From positions 7,545,501 through 7,609,500 of the forward strand of contig NZ_CP130630.1 of the NCBI RefSeq assembly GCF_030551255.1: a stretch of DNA of 64,000 nucleotides, read 5' to 3'. This document shows positions 32,346-60,562 of the stretch, one piece after another; within the stretch, counting starts at the first letter, position 1, and each line of letters opens with the position of its first letter. The translations under genes were made by a program, and so were the position numbers. This DNA comes from Streptomyces sp. NL15-2K (GTDB lineage: Bacteria > Actinomycetota > Actinomycetes > Streptomycetales > Streptomycetaceae). The notes under the pieces were generated by a model. The model made no database searches. It was not told where the DNA came from and worked only from the letters and a program-made list of their open reading frames with translations.

Positions 32346-32579
32346 CACGCGCCGGATGCCATCGCCCTGGACGACTGCCACACTTGCCTGCTCACGAAGA
32401 GCAGGCGCACTCCGTTCCCCGCTGCCGAGGCCTGGCGGGCCCTGGCCGGGACATCCGCGTCAGGGTCGTGAGAGCGCGCCGCTCCGCTCCGGTCAGGCCG
32501 TGTCCCCCAGGTGGACGACGGGGGATGCCCCCCCCGGGCTGCCCGGCTATCCGCGCCGCGCATAGAGGTGCTCACCCAG

Positions 32580-32659
32580 TAATTGGCAGATCTGTTCCAC
32601 CGGCACGGCCACATGACCTGGTGTTTTCCTTCGCGGGGGTGGAACAGATCTGCCAATCA
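32580..32659. repeat. REP-like hairpin, copy 2 (unoccupied)
   Basis: The arms TAATTGGCAGATCTGTTCCA... (32580-32601) and its inverse (32638-32659) pair with one mismatch. The loop contains CCACATGACCTGGTG and TTTTCCTTCGCGGGGG. Read on the minus strand this is the same element that is split by the IS1111-group insertion at 57.0-58.6 kb, so it represents an empty insertion site. Confidence 0.88.
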
Positions 32660-56526: not shown

Positions 56527-56780
56527 CAGGTGGCCGTGGGGCCGCCCGCTTCTTTGCCAGTGTCGTGCTTCCACGACCCGAGTAAAGGGCGCTCCGCTGA
56601 CGCTCCGCGTCGCCTTCGGCGATCGGCCTGCGGCCGACCCTTGACTCGGCTCGCTCCAGCACGGGTGAGAAGCGAGCGGGCGGCCCGGAGGGATGGGTGG
56701 CCCAGGTGAGGGTCCCTTGGGTTGGTTGGGGGGTGGGCCGGGGTTCAGGGGGCGCGGTCGCGTCTCGCCAGCACGCCGGG
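56527..56780 (+). repeat. Left arm of a 254-bp inverted repeat
   Basis: From CAGGTGGCCGTGGGGCC to CAGCACGCCGGG this segment is over 95 percent identical to the reverse complement of 59310-59564. A diverged copy is at 5388-5518. Short frames on both strands in it are not convincing genes. Confidence 0.92.
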
Positions 56781-57030
56781 TCGCCTCAGCGACGAACGGC
56801 CCATCCGCGCCTGGGGCTGGGCCGCCCCGGCCGGGTGGCACGCCGGGTCGGCTGAGCGACGACCGGTGAGACCGGTGAGTGGGTGGCGGCGGTGCGCGTC
56901 GGCGGAGCGGGGACACACCGGACCGGCTGAGCGAGTGGGCTCAGCGAGTGGGCTCAGCGACTGCGGTCAGCAGGGCGATGACCGCCCCGTCCGGGCGGCT
57001 TCGCCCCACGGGCCCCGCGAGGACGTCCCC
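56781..57030 (+). repeat. Degenerate tandem array, left side
   Basis: Words such as CACGCCGGGTCGGCTGAGCGA and GAGCGAGTGGGCTCAGCGA repeat with about 60-base and shorter periods. They correspond, inverted, to the longer 63-66 bp array at 58720-59309. No gene is seen. Confidence 0.6.
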
Positions 57031-57058
57031 GCCCGGTAATTGGCAGATCTGTTCCACC
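57031..57058 (+). repeat. REP-like hairpin copy 3, left half
   Basis: GCCCGGTAATTGGCAGATCT and the following GTTCCACC form one 28-base arm whose exact inverse is 58566-58593. The left part of the loop (CCCGGGAAGGAAAACCCC) follows and is then interrupted by the IS110-family element at 57078. Confidence 0.9.
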
Positions 57059-57094
57059 CCCGGGAAGGAAAACCCCACCCATGAGGGCCGGGCC

Positions 57095-57452
57095 TGTCAA
57101 GGGTCGTAGACGGCCACCGCCTGCGGCCTTTCGGTTGGATGCCGGGGCGTTTTCCTTGTGGAGCTTCCTCGCGGTCCCGACCGCCGCTCGTCGGCCTCCG
57201 GCTCGGACGCCGAGGAAGCGTCACGGATGTTCAGGGCTGCGGTCGTTGACGTCCCCGATGCTCTTGTGGCCGGCGGAGTGGTCTCACATCCACCCATTCG
57301 GCGTCCGGCTGGACAGGCCGGCGCCATGACCGTGGTTCGGGGATCCGGGCTGCTCAGTCAGGTCATCGAGCGCGGCCGCGAGGCCGTCTCATGGGGTTTT
57401 ACGAGCTCACCCGGTGTCTTCGGCCGCCCCTGGCGGTTGTTGTCGGTCAGCG
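57095..57452 (-). ncRNA. Candidate bridge/seek RNA of the IS1111-group element
   Basis: The long noncoding 3' end of the element should encode its guide RNA, as known for the IS110 family. On the transposase strand AAAACCCC (57393-57400) equals the left target flank at 57069-57076, and after a GC-rich hairpin ATGACCTGAC (57357-57366) is complementary to the right flank GTCAGGTCA (58545-58553). These have the polarity expected of two target-guide halves around an internal loop. A further match is GTTTTCCTT (57149-57157), the inverse of AAGGAAAAC in the left flank. Confidence 0.5.
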
Positions 57453-58460
57453 TCATCGGGCCCCCTGCCGGTCGTGTGGGGCTGGGACGGCGCGCAGGAG
57501 GTGGTAGGCGCGGGCCAGCAGGCGGCGGGCGATCGCGGTGGTGGCGATCTTCTTGCCGCGGCGGTGGGCGAGGCGCTGGTAAGTAGCGGCGAAGTCCGGT
57601 GAACGTTTCGCGGTCTGGGCTGCCTCGCACAAGATCCACCGCAGCCAGGGCGAGCCCTGCTTGGAGATGTGACCGTGCCGGACGGTGAGGTCGGAGCTGC
57701 GGACGGTGGGGGTGAGCCCGGCCCAGGCAGCGAGCTTGCGGGCGGAGGGGAAGCGGGTGACGTCGCCGATCTCGGCTGCGATGATCAGGGCGGTGAGCGT
57801 GCCCACGCCGGGCAGCTGGGTGAGGGCTTTGACCCGCGGATCACCGCGCGCGTGCGCGACCAGTTGTTCATCGAGAGCGTCGATGGGTTCTTTGAGGGCG
57901 TCGATCAGACCGAGGAGGTCGTCGACCACGCGGCGCGAGGCGTCCGGCAGATCAAGGCCCTCCAGCCAGGCCCGTCCCGGGGAGGTGAAATAGCTGCCCG
58001 GGCGGTCGCAGCCGTAATCCGCCAGGACGGCGTGGACGCGGTTGCGCAGCAGCGTGCGCAGACGGACCAGCTGGCAGCGGTGCCGCACCAGGGCCCGCTG
58101 CTGCCGCACGCCCAGCGGGGCGATCCATGCCTCCGGCAGCAGATCCGCGCGCAGCAGCTGCGCGAGGGTCGCCGCGTCCACCTTGTCGTTCTTCAGCCGG
58201 GCGGAGGCGATGGCCTTGCACCGCAGCGGGTGCACCAGGTGCGGCTCGAAGCCGTAGTCCTCCAGCAGCTCCACCAGCCAGCCCCAGCCGTAGGCGGCCT
58301 CGAAGGCGACCGGCGCACCGATCGGAAGATCCCCGATCACCGACAGCACCGGCTCCACCCCATTGGGCACGTTCCGGTTCACCCGCACCGCGCCATCGTC
58401 CTCGACCACCGCAATCTGCGACCGCTTGCGGTGCACGTCGATACCGACGTAGACAGACAT
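57453..58460 (-). CDS. IS110-family transposase (DEDD recombinase)
   Basis: ATG 58460 gives 335 residues starting MSVYVGIDVHRKRSQIAVVE. The RuvC-like N-terminal domain shows D8, E54 (AFEAAYGW), D92 and D95 (LKNDKVDAATL). The C-terminal Transposase_20 domain has LPGVGTLTALIIAAEIGD and SKQGSPWLRW, with the conserved serine at 269. All catalytic residues are present, so the enzyme looks active. It works with a guide RNA to join the element to a target. Confidence 0.95.
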   Translation of the reverse strand: MSVYVGIDVHRKRSQIAVVEDDGAVRVNRNVPNGVEPVLSVIGDLPIGAPVAFEAAYGWGWLVELLEDYGFEPHLVHPLRCKAIASARLKNDKVDAATLAQLLRADLLPEAWIAPLGVRQQRALVRHRCQLVRLRTLLRNRVHAVLADYGCDRPGSYFTSPGRAWLEGLDLPDASRRVVDDLLGLIDALKEPIDALDEQLVAHARGDPRVKALTQLPGVGTLTALIIAAEIGDVTRFPSARKLAAWAGLTPTVRSSDLTVRHGHISKQGSPWLRWILCEAAQTAKRSPDFAATYQRLAHRRGKKIATTAIARRLLARAYHLLRAVPAPHDRQGAR

Positions 58461-58565
58461 TGAGGGCCTCCTTCCTGAGCTCGTGCATACCCGGACGATA
58501 GGAATCACCGGGCTGAGCAGGGAAGGGGGCCCGGCCCTCATAGGGTCAGGTCACGTGGCCGTGCA

Positions 58566-58593
58566 GGTGGAACAGATCTGCCAATTACCGGGC
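58566..58593 (-). repeat. REP-like hairpin copy 3, right half
   Basis: This is the exact inverse of 57031-57058. The adjoining loop sequence CAGGTCACGTGGCCGTGCA matches the empty copy at 32.6 kb on the minus strand. Together with the left half it reconstructs a complete hairpin once the insertion sequence is removed. Confidence 0.9.
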
Positions 58594-58719
58594 GGGTGAC
58601 CGATTTGTCCGACGCCGCGATCTCTCGGCAGCCGCTGAGCCGGACCAACCGGGCCAAAGGGACCGACCGGCCCACCCGGTGCACGCCCCCGCACCCGCCC
58701 ACCACTCACCGGCCCGCCA

Positions 58720-59309
58720 CCCACTGCGCCCACCGGGCGTGCCGCCACTCCCGCGCATCCCCGGCCGCCAGTCGCCAAAACCGGCCCCGGCGTACCGCCA
58801 CTCGGCCGACGCGCCCCCAGCCACCCACAGGCCGTCGGTGGTCACGTCCGCCGAGTCGGCCCGAAGGACCCGGCCCCGCTGGTGCGCACCCGGCGCCGCC
58901 CACCGGCCCGCCATCCGCTGAGCCCACCAGGCGTCCCGCCCCAGCCAGCGCGCCCGCAGCCACCCACCAGCCACACACGCTGGACTGCCCCGGCGTGCCG
59001 CCGCCCGGCAGGTGCGCCCCCAGCCGCCCACCCACCGATCGCCGCTGAGGCGGCCCGGCGTCCCGCCACCCGACCGGTGCGCCCCCAACCACCACTCACC
59101 GCACGTCGCTGAGTCCACCCGGCGTCCCGCCCCAGCCAGCGCGCCCCCAGCCGCCCACCCACCGATCGCCGCTGAGGCGGCCCGGCGTGCCGCCACCCGA
59201 CCGGTGCGCCCCCAGCCGCCCACCCACCGCTCGTCGCTAAGCCGACCCGGCGTGCCGCCCCCCAGCCAGCGCGCCTCAGCCGCCCACTCACCCCTCGCCG
59301 CCAAGCCGG
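58720..59309 (-). repeat. 63-66 bp tandem array, about nine to ten units
   Basis: Units marked by CCCGGCGT begin near 58988, 59054, 59118, 59181 and 59246, ending at 59310 where the inverted-repeat arm starts; more degenerate units extend back to about 58720. Two alternating types end in CACCCGACCGGTGCGCCCCC or CCCAGCCAGCGCGCCCCC. Unit length varies by 1-3 bases, so no reading frame is kept; frames here are artefacts of GC content. Confidence 0.85.
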
Positions 59310-59564
59310 CCCGGCGTGCTGGCGAGGCGCGAGCGCGCCCCCTGAACCCCGGCCCAGCCCCCAACCAACCCAAGGGACCCCCACCTGGGCCACCCATCCC
59401 TCCGGGCCGCCCGCTCGCTTCTCACCCGTGCTGGAGCGAGCCGAGTCAAGGGTCGGCCGCAGGCCGATCGCCGAAGGCGACGCGGAGCGACAGCGGAGCG
59501 CCCTTTACTCGGGTCGTGGAAGCACGACACTGGCAAAGAAGCGGGCGGCCCCACGGCCAACCTG
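59310..59564 (-). repeat. Right arm of the 254-bp inverted repeat
   Basis: Inverse of 56527-56780 with few differences, for example CGCTGTCGCTCC against CGCTGACGCTCC. It ends about 80 bases before mshB. Confidence 0.92.
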
Positions 59565-59647: not shown

Positions 59648-60562
59648 ATGACGGAACTGCCCGCCCGGCGTCTGTTGCTGGTGCACGCGCACCCGGACGA
59701 CGAGTCGATCAACAACGGCGCGACCATGGCCAAGTACGCGGCCGAGGGCGCCCGGGTGACCCTGGTCACCTGCACCCTCGGCGAGCGCGGCGAGGTCATT
59801 CCGCCCGAGCTCGCGCATCTGACCGGCGCCGCCCTTGGCGAGCACCGGCTGCGTGAGCTCACGGCCGCGATGCGCGCGCTCGGCGTCGAGGACTTCCGGC
59901 GGCTGGGCGGCTCCGGGCGCTACCAGGACTCCGGGATGATGGGCCTCACCGACAACGATGACCCGGCCTGCCTGTGGCAGGCCGACGTCGACGAGGCGGC
60001 TCGGTATCTCGTCGAGGTGATCCTCGATGTGCGGCCCCAGGTGCTTGTCACCTATGACCCCAATGGCGGGTACGGGCATCCCGACCACGTCCAGGCACAC
60101 CGTGTGGCCATGCGGGCCGTGGAGCTGGCCGCAGAGGCCGGCTGGGAGATCGCCAAGGTCTACTGGAACCGCGTACCGCGCTCCGTCGCCGAAGACGCCT
60201 TCGCGGCGCTTCAGCGGGACCTGCCCGGCCTCCCCTTCACCAAGGCCGGTGTCCTCGACGACGTGCCGGGCGTGGTCGACGACGAGGTCATCACCACCGA
60301 GATCGACGGCAGCGCGTACGCCGCCGCCAAGGCCGCCGCGATGCGCGCGCACGCCACCCAGGTCACGGTGGCCGAGCCGTACTTCGTGCTCTCCAACGAG
60401 CTCGCCCAGCCCGTCTTCAGCACCGAGTACTACGAGTTGGTGCGGGGGGAGCCGGCGGCCTCCGGCTCTCGGGAGAGCGATCTGTTCGCCGGAATCGCCG
60501 GCATTAACGGGCTCAATGAAATCGCCGGAATCCCCGGAATCGCCGGGATCGAGGAGGCGTGA
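59648..60562 (+). CDS. mshB: GlcNAc-Ins deacetylase of mycothiol synthesis
   Basis: The 304-residue LmbE-type enzyme has [12 protein letters not shown] (H15, D18 in the zinc site), TLGERGEV, and [12 protein letters not shown] with H144 and H147. It removes the acetyl group from GlcNAc-inositol, the second committed step of mycothiol formation. The C-terminus carries a repetitive tail ([20 protein letters not shown]) beyond the usual family end, encoded by short DNA repeats. The following gene starts at its stop codon. Confidence 0.93.

Follow-up and report, generated by a model that had tools for sequence, protein, structure and literature searches.

The window, that is, the whole stretch of 64,000 nucleotides analysed here, carries a mobile element at 57078–58548, which is, to judge from its sequence, an IS1111-type element. 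According to the convention published for the ends of such elements, which extend 7 bp outside the left subterminal repeat and 3 bp outside the right one (PMC11187229), its ends read TGACCCT-sTIR (left) and sTIR-GGG (right) on the transposase strand, and the empty sites agree with these limits. The subterminal inverted repeats are perfect over 14 bp, for a length of about 11–13 bp expected in IS1111 elements. In the relatives scanned, repeats of 14–15 bp are perfect in 13/25 cases; the others are shorter, imperfect, truncated or not found. The genome (12.4 Mb) harbours a second full copy, L002 (C1:6207014-6208497), plus several remnants. A literature search, with subscription papers and ISfinder outside its scope, retrieved no paper recognised by its title as describing the element itself.

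The transposase matches Pfam families PF01548 and PF02371 (scanned with the longer version of the ORF, which begins at 58541) and reaches 251 bits against the NCBIfam model NF033542, 'IS110 family RNA-guided transposase', whose cut-off is 140. It aligns with the transposase of IS621 (8wt6) with E=3.8e-19, and each of the catalytic residues of IS621 (D, E, D, D and S; PMC11208158) faces the same residue in this protein, in an alignment judged by eye and with a deduced numbering offset of 2. Downstream of the transposase gene lies a noncoding region of 375 bp (57078–57452). With an RNA region in 3' and 14-bp repeats, the element falls outside the IS110 group proper (IS621-like). A search of Rfam with positions 56900–58800 returned two matches only, both at chance level and under the gathering scores of their families. 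The features of the element and of its insertion site are collected in the table.

Features of the element and of its insertion site (positions in the window)
Feature	Positions	Strand	Basis or remark
Interrupted palindromic repeat, left half	57028..57077	+	31-nt perfect inverted arms; ~45 genome copies
Target left half, AAAACCC + core CA	57069..57077	+	empty and occupied sites
IS1111-type element, 1471 bp	57078..58548	-	second copy L002; published 7-bp/3-bp end convention (PMC11187229)
Subterminal inverted repeat, transposase-right copy	57081..57094	+	ATGAGGGCCGGGCC
Structured core of predicted bridge RNA / seekRNA	57252..57414	-	fold z-score, covariation in 21 sequences
Putative donor-loop handshake base G	57290..57290	-	follows first target base after core
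Putative 3' donor guide ATGGG + core TG	57291..57297	-	identical to right end CATGGG-TG
Hairpin separating putative donor-guide halves	57300..57325	-	helix 5: two-sided changes in 6/9 pairs
Putative 5' donor guide ACGGTCA	57327..57333	-	complements left end TGACCCT, one mismatch
Putative target-loop handshake bases AC	57357..57358	-	match element left end TG-AC-CCT; identical in 22/26 rows
Predicted 3' target guide TGACC + core TG	57359..57365	-	identical to left flank
Hairpin separating predicted target-guide halves, GAG-A-CGGCC/GGCCG-CG-CTC	57368..57390	-	helix 3: two-sided changes in 3/8 pairs
Core dinucleotide CA of predicted 5' target guide	57392..57393	-	junction match
Predicted 5' target guide TAAAACCC	57394..57401	-	complements flank beyond transposase-right end
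DEDD transposase, 335 aa	57453..58460	-	ATG start at 58460
Subterminal inverted repeat, transposase-left copy	58528..58541	-	ATGAGGGCCGGGCC read on minus strand
Target right half, core CA + GGTCA	58547..58553	+	58547-58548 assigned to element by convention
Interrupted palindromic repeat, right half	58547..58596	+	~45 genome copies

The left flank of the element, GAAAACCCCA, ends with base 57077 and its right flank, CAGGTCA, covers 58547–58553. As the empty site has one CA whereas the occupied site has a CA at each junction, the target is AAAACCC-CA-GGTCA; the empty sites also indicate that AAAACCCCAGG is part of it, and the predicted target written out is AAAACCCCAGGTCA. What L002, located outside the repeat in which the window copy sits, has in common with the latter is limited to AAACCCCA in one flank and CAGGTCA in the opposite one. 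A partial copy in unrelated surroundings (L003) also has AAACCCCA in common with the flank of the window copy. L002 (~1430-1530 of its locus, minus orientation) splits AAACCCCAGG...CCTGGGGTTT, a terminator-like hairpin behind an apparent tRNA 3' end. Targeting of sites adjacent to tRNA genes, a candidate suggested by this flank, was rejected: ARAGORN detects one tRNA in 31 loci and none at L002, the sole tRNA lying in L003, more than 300 bases from the remnant.

The repeat interrupted by the window copy is an intergenic palindrome of about 80 nt, with arms TTGGCAGATCTGTTCCACC, obtained by joining 57028–57077 to 58547–58596. Another copy, which is empty, lies at approximately 32576–32657; its left half reads AAAACAC-CA, which leaves one mismatch to the guide described below. 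With at most two mismatches, the arm is found 45 times in forward and 43 times in reverse orientation in the genome, and 37 pairs of these matches are spaced by 54 nt, which leads to an estimate of about 45 copies of the repeat. All 88 arm matches fall within 3.38–9.30 Mb of the 12.3-Mb contig.

Uninterrupted copies of the repeat mostly read ...GAAAACCCCAGGTGA... The bases to the right of the core are GGTGA in 17, GGTCA in two, GGTCG in two and GGTGG in one of the 22 uninterrupted copies retrieved by one pattern that fixes CCAGGT and that some copies of the repeat escape. Both empty GGTCA copies deviate in the left half, so that a full match to the guide is found in 0/22. In contrast, the repeats that are or were occupied and whose right half is readable (that of the window, L006 and L007) carry GGTCA in 3/3 cases, versus 2/22 for the empty ones (Fisher's exact test, worked by hand on small numbers, 0.004). 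L004 and L005 also have bases of the element within a repeat and were left out of this count, their right half being gone or unclear. Genome-wide, AAACCCCAGGTSA occurs 20 times (GGTGA 17, GGTCA 3), which means that three perfect 13-base targets are still unoccupied. Two repeats, in L007 (~1560-1600) and L005 (~1540-1570), retain only about 20 bases of the transposase-right end of the element. The scar of L007, CCCATGAGGGCCGGGCCTGT, lies between two CA; it looks as though an internal CA had served as a site for the recombinase, or as though microhomology at GTCA had been involved. In L005, the spacing of the arms is still normal (54 nt), for which a simple deletion does not account.

On the transposase strand, the noncoding tail contains AAAACCCCA at 57392–57400, then a hairpin, then TGACCTGAC at 57357–57365, and both words match the insertion junction. 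The minus strand reads, in order, GTGAGCTCG-TAAAACCC-CA-TGAGACGGCCTCGCGGCCGCGCTCGA-TGACC-TG-AC-TGAGC. A sequence-only reading of this locus had singled out AAAACCCC (57393–57400) and ATGACCTGAC (57357–57366), separated by a foldable spacer, as candidate guide halves; words and spacer are indeed present on the minus strand, and the word CATGACCTG that it had found in the empty hairpin copy (~32576-32657) is located at 32612–32620 on the plus strand. The trailing AC of TGACCTGAC matches the left end of the element itself (TG-AC-CCT) and not the empty target, which, read on this strand, has GG there (TGACC-TG-GGG), and the A ahead of TGACC matches the empty copy but mismatches the flank of the window copy (GTGACC). 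The functional halves appear to be TAAAACCC plus CA in 5' and TGACC plus TG in 3', CA/TG being the probable 2-bp core. The 5' half is complementary to GGGTTTT of TGGGGTTTT, the outermost T being unmatched.

Relatives of the element were collected by one scan of genome contigs, which provided 40 loci, and by searches of genomes at E <= 1e-80. Genomes carrying relatives amount to 6/295 for the genus, 10/394 for the family and 4/396 for the phylum, the genome of the window being counted each time; two further groups of genomes (6/70 and 1/3 positive) brought no new relatives. A pattern anchored in the loop, which allows 1–2 substitutions in the 3' guide and is therefore biased towards its constancy, gave 32 rows after removal of duplicates. 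Without L029 and L032, which have no right end, and without five rows with 9-nt guides, 25 rows belonging to 15 guide classes remain. The right ends of L030 and L079 come from a calling that requires TG after the end and is blind to the guide.

The 5' guide varies with the right flank, as the sequence-only reading had expected of guide segments across insertions. Over positions n1–n8, the class mean identity between guide and flank is 0.726, versus 0.44 after permutation, and none of 20,000 permutations is as high; when n1 is left out, these values become 0.697 versus 0.42, again with 0/20,000. The flank base predicted by the guide is found in 24/25 rows at n1, 19/25 at n2, 12/25 at n3, 18/25 at n4, 20/25 at n5, 19/25 at n6, 23/25 at n7 and 11/24 at n8. 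For 8/15 classes only, no other flank matches the guide better than its own, because similar guides recur. On a tree of the transposase genes (28 copies), the 5' guide has changed at least 17 times; three rows of this tree, L041, L047 and L079, have long branches and an unsure placement, the first two being truncated elements. In L079 (65% transposase identity), the guide matches its own flank at 8/8 positions. The match is poor in L022 (2/8), whose donor loop is interrupted, and in L027 (4/8). The five 9-nt guides match their flanks at 3–6 positions without gap and at 5–7/8 with one bulged base, this bulge being freely chosen. A constant guide with differing flanks, the pattern put forward as contrary to a guide function, is seen in part: Streptomyces sp. 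NWU339 carries one guide at six sites (L016, L017, L018, L019, L028 and L033) with 4, 4, 6, 4, 7 and 5 matches out of 8. The partly poor sites of this six-copy guide possibly reflect a relaxed targeting or a recent burst.

The 3' guide of 24 distinct loops is TGACC-TG, and in 22/26 rows TGACC is also the left flank. When the 3' guide was read again through the exact downstream anchor TGAGCAGCC, without any condition on the guide letters, 32 distinct matches were obtained: 24 TGACCTG, two true loops with other letters (L080 and L081) and six judged to be due to chance. In L081 (53% transposase identity), the 3' guide CGACATT-TG corresponds to the flank GGACATT at 6/7 positions; in L080 (59% identity), GTCAAAA-TG corresponds more weakly to TTAAAAA, with four identities in a row beside the core. 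The 5' guides of L081 and L080 predict TGTCCCGTTT (flank TGTCCCACTA) and TGTGCCTAAT (flank TGTGCCTATT), respectively. In both elements, the 5' guide, the 3' guide, the donor guide and the handshake bases all depart from those of the window, and do so in accordance with flanks and ends, if not perfectly. The change of the 3' guide in these more distant relatives goes with that of the left flank, clearly in L081 and weakly in L080.

The RNA of the window (57240–57420) folds into two stem-loops that leave the target guide bases largely unpaired (z=-2.31; 2/200 shuffles as low). The sequence-only reading had made conserved structure of the 3' end a touchstone, and the comparison of 21 aligned relatives, that of the window included, is in its favour. 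In this alignment, 86.9% of the cells are paired (shuffled mean, 83.2%) and 13/38 pairs show two-sided changes, versus a shuffled mean of 7.1, with 1/500 shuffles as high; the count leaves aside the basal MFE pairs of the donor loop, taken from the window sequence alone, and three core-core pairs. When the partner is slid by 1–3 columns, pairing falls to 26–45%. In a free prediction by RNAalifold, covariation contributes little (-0.52 of -34.93 kcal/mol), while 10/37 pairs have two-sided changes. Within the target loop, the most variable bases are those that track the flank, and the basal stem hardly varies.

The second loop (57290–57333) is, from its sequence matches, the probable donor loop. 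Its 3' guide and the right end read ATGGG/ATGGG in 28/28 rows, where they hardly vary and where both search patterns favoured these letters. L081 has ATAGG both in the donor loop and at the right end; L037, outside the 28 rows, has ATAGG in the loop and a mismatched CATGGG at the right end. When the left end changes slightly (TGATCCT, TGACTCT, TGACCAT), the 5' donor guide does not follow. In L081, both donor-guide halves depart from those of the window in the expected sense. Handshake pairs, known from IS621 (PMC11208158), may exist in both loops. In the donor loop, the base following ATGGG-TG is identical to the target base directly adjoining the core (n1) in 22/28 rows (C/C in 15, G/G in seven); the six other rows have T in the loop versus C in the target, which a G-U pair would permit. 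L080 and L081 have T in both loop and target. In 3/3 independent switches between G and C at target base n1 on the transposase tree, the donor-loop base has switched too, a number with which a sign test cannot reach 0.05. As for the target loop, the bases at the two positions following its core are those of the left end of the element in 22/26 rows, including AT/AT in L012–L014, and differ in L022, L037, L055 and L060 (4/26); outside these 26 rows, L080 has AA/AA and L081 has AG/AG.

Matches of guides, their co-variation with flanks, conserved structure, and occupied and empty sites are established at the level of sequence. The reading of the two words as target-guide halves of a predicted bridge RNA is strongly supported: the part of the tail that contains them would be the target-binding loop of such an RNA (seekRNA), encoded in the noncoding DNA at the 3' end of an element of the IS1111 type, a reading to which we give a probability of about 94%.

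Three other explanations have to be weighed, all very improbable. The most serious of them is flank capture, in which the tail would copy the last target as a memory or by-product and the protein alone would pick the site. Co-variation by itself gives no direction of cause and the numerous changes of guides on the tree could suit such copying, but several sets of copies (those of the window and L002, L055 and L060, L069 and L076, and those of NWU339) keep their guide while their sites differ elsewhere. The sites associated with a same guide mainly have the guide-complementary bases in common, apart from the weak cases given above. Furthermore, the two halves, which match opposite strands and have a conserved hairpin between them, follow the order that experiments have shown in the seekRNAs of IS1111 elements (PMC11187229), and the empty hairpins examined lack a full match to the guide.

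It is still less likely that the structured tail is mainly a cis-acting DNA or RNA element, such as a transposase-binding site, an attenuator or a terminator. This would agree with its good folding and its position directly behind the stop codon; however, a cis element would not need variable bases that track the flank above a nearly invariant stem. As for matches by chance or composition, a GC-rich tail happening to hold words of the junction, they are the least credible explanation of all. When the 358-nt tail (57095–57452) is simulated 200,000 times with a first-order Markov model, single words are not that rare (0.35% for the 9-mer, 2.8% for the 7-mer), but AAAACCCCA followed by TGACCTG within 60 nt, that is, both words in guide order, arises only five times. 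Moreover, the structure is conserved, and the co-variation across the 15 guide classes already refutes chance, unless flanks were mis-called in most relatives.

If the tail does encode a bridge RNA, the latter would be transcribed from the 3' noncoding end of the element and bound by the transposase. Its 5' guide, UAAAACCC-CA, would pair with the target strand lying transposase-right of the core; across the core, its 3' guide, UGACC-UG, would pair with the opposite strand. The DEDD transposase would then cut and insert at TGACC-TG-GGGTTTT (AAAACCC-CA-GGTCA on the window strand). The second loop, ACGGUCA ... AUGGG-UG, would likewise hold the abutted ends of the element in a donor that presumably circularizes. 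The handshake would follow a presumed exchange of strands and consist in the pairing of 1–2 bases beside each core with the DNA of the partner.

The element resembles those for which seekRNAs have been described (ISEc11, ISKpn4, ISPst6 and ISPa11; PMC11187229) by its noncoding region downstream of tnp, its subterminal repeats with 7/3-bp extensions, and its two short guides, a top-strand complement followed by a bottom-strand match. Like ISPa11, which targets a REP repeat (PMC11187229), it has inserted into a palindromic repeat. For IS1111 members such as ISPa11, bridge RNAs that comprise guides for both target and donor have also been predicted (PMC11208160). It differs from the elements presented in PMC11187229 by its sequence and host, an actinomycete, and by a structured region of about 160 nt including the second loop, versus 70–100 nt for these seekRNAs. 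A 3' guide frozen at TGACC with a variable 5' guide is another difference from the published IS1111 seekRNAs. Likenesses with IS621 and the IS110 bridge RNA (PMC11208160, PMC11208158) are two loops, of which the second is the probable donor loop here, guides split over both strands, a 2-bp core that takes part in every predicted pairing, putative handshake bases and a related DEDD transposase. However, the RNA of IS110 is encoded upstream of tnp whereas the RNA region is in 3' of tnp here, and the core is CT in IS621 versus CA/TG. In addition, the order of guides on the transposase strand in IS1111 is the reverse of that of IS110/IS621 (PMC11187229). This refines the sequence-only reading, which is otherwise supported: the arrangement here is that of IS1111. 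REP-targeting insertion sequences (PMC1525189) likewise enter palindromic repeats that lie between genes and number dozens of copies; specificity would here be explained by a guide match of 12–14 nt in the loop of the repeat, and the same guide would also serve sites outside the repeat (L002, L003).

Comparison of the relatives leans slightly towards the view that, in this actinomycete IS1111 clade, one half of the bridge RNA is frozen and the other free. The 3' target guide and the donor loop would be fixed and the 5' guide repeatedly rewritten, a change of n1 being paired with that of one donor-loop base, an unpaired n3 being tolerated, and some guides having a bulged extra base. If this holds, handshake pairing would extend from IS110 to IS1111, where the strand order is reversed, and natural re-programming would proceed by changing 7–9 bases plus one. 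Bridge RNAs of IS110 and IS1111 are programmable recombination guides; this element offers a series of relatives that have been re-targeted in nature and whose flanks can be read, a family of occupied and empty repeats that constitutes a natural test of specificity, and sequence evidence suggesting joint changes of handshake bases and target in the IS1111 arrangement. Globally, the result confirms and extends a type of RNA-guided transposon and brings no new principle.

Other repeats are found around the element. Its region is bracketed by a 228-nt inverted repeat, 91% complementary (56590–56817 and 59273–59500), and imperfect GC-rich repeats with a spacing of 65 to about 200 nt occupy 58672–59340, on the side of the element that faces an ORF with its start at 59648 and ahead of this ORF.
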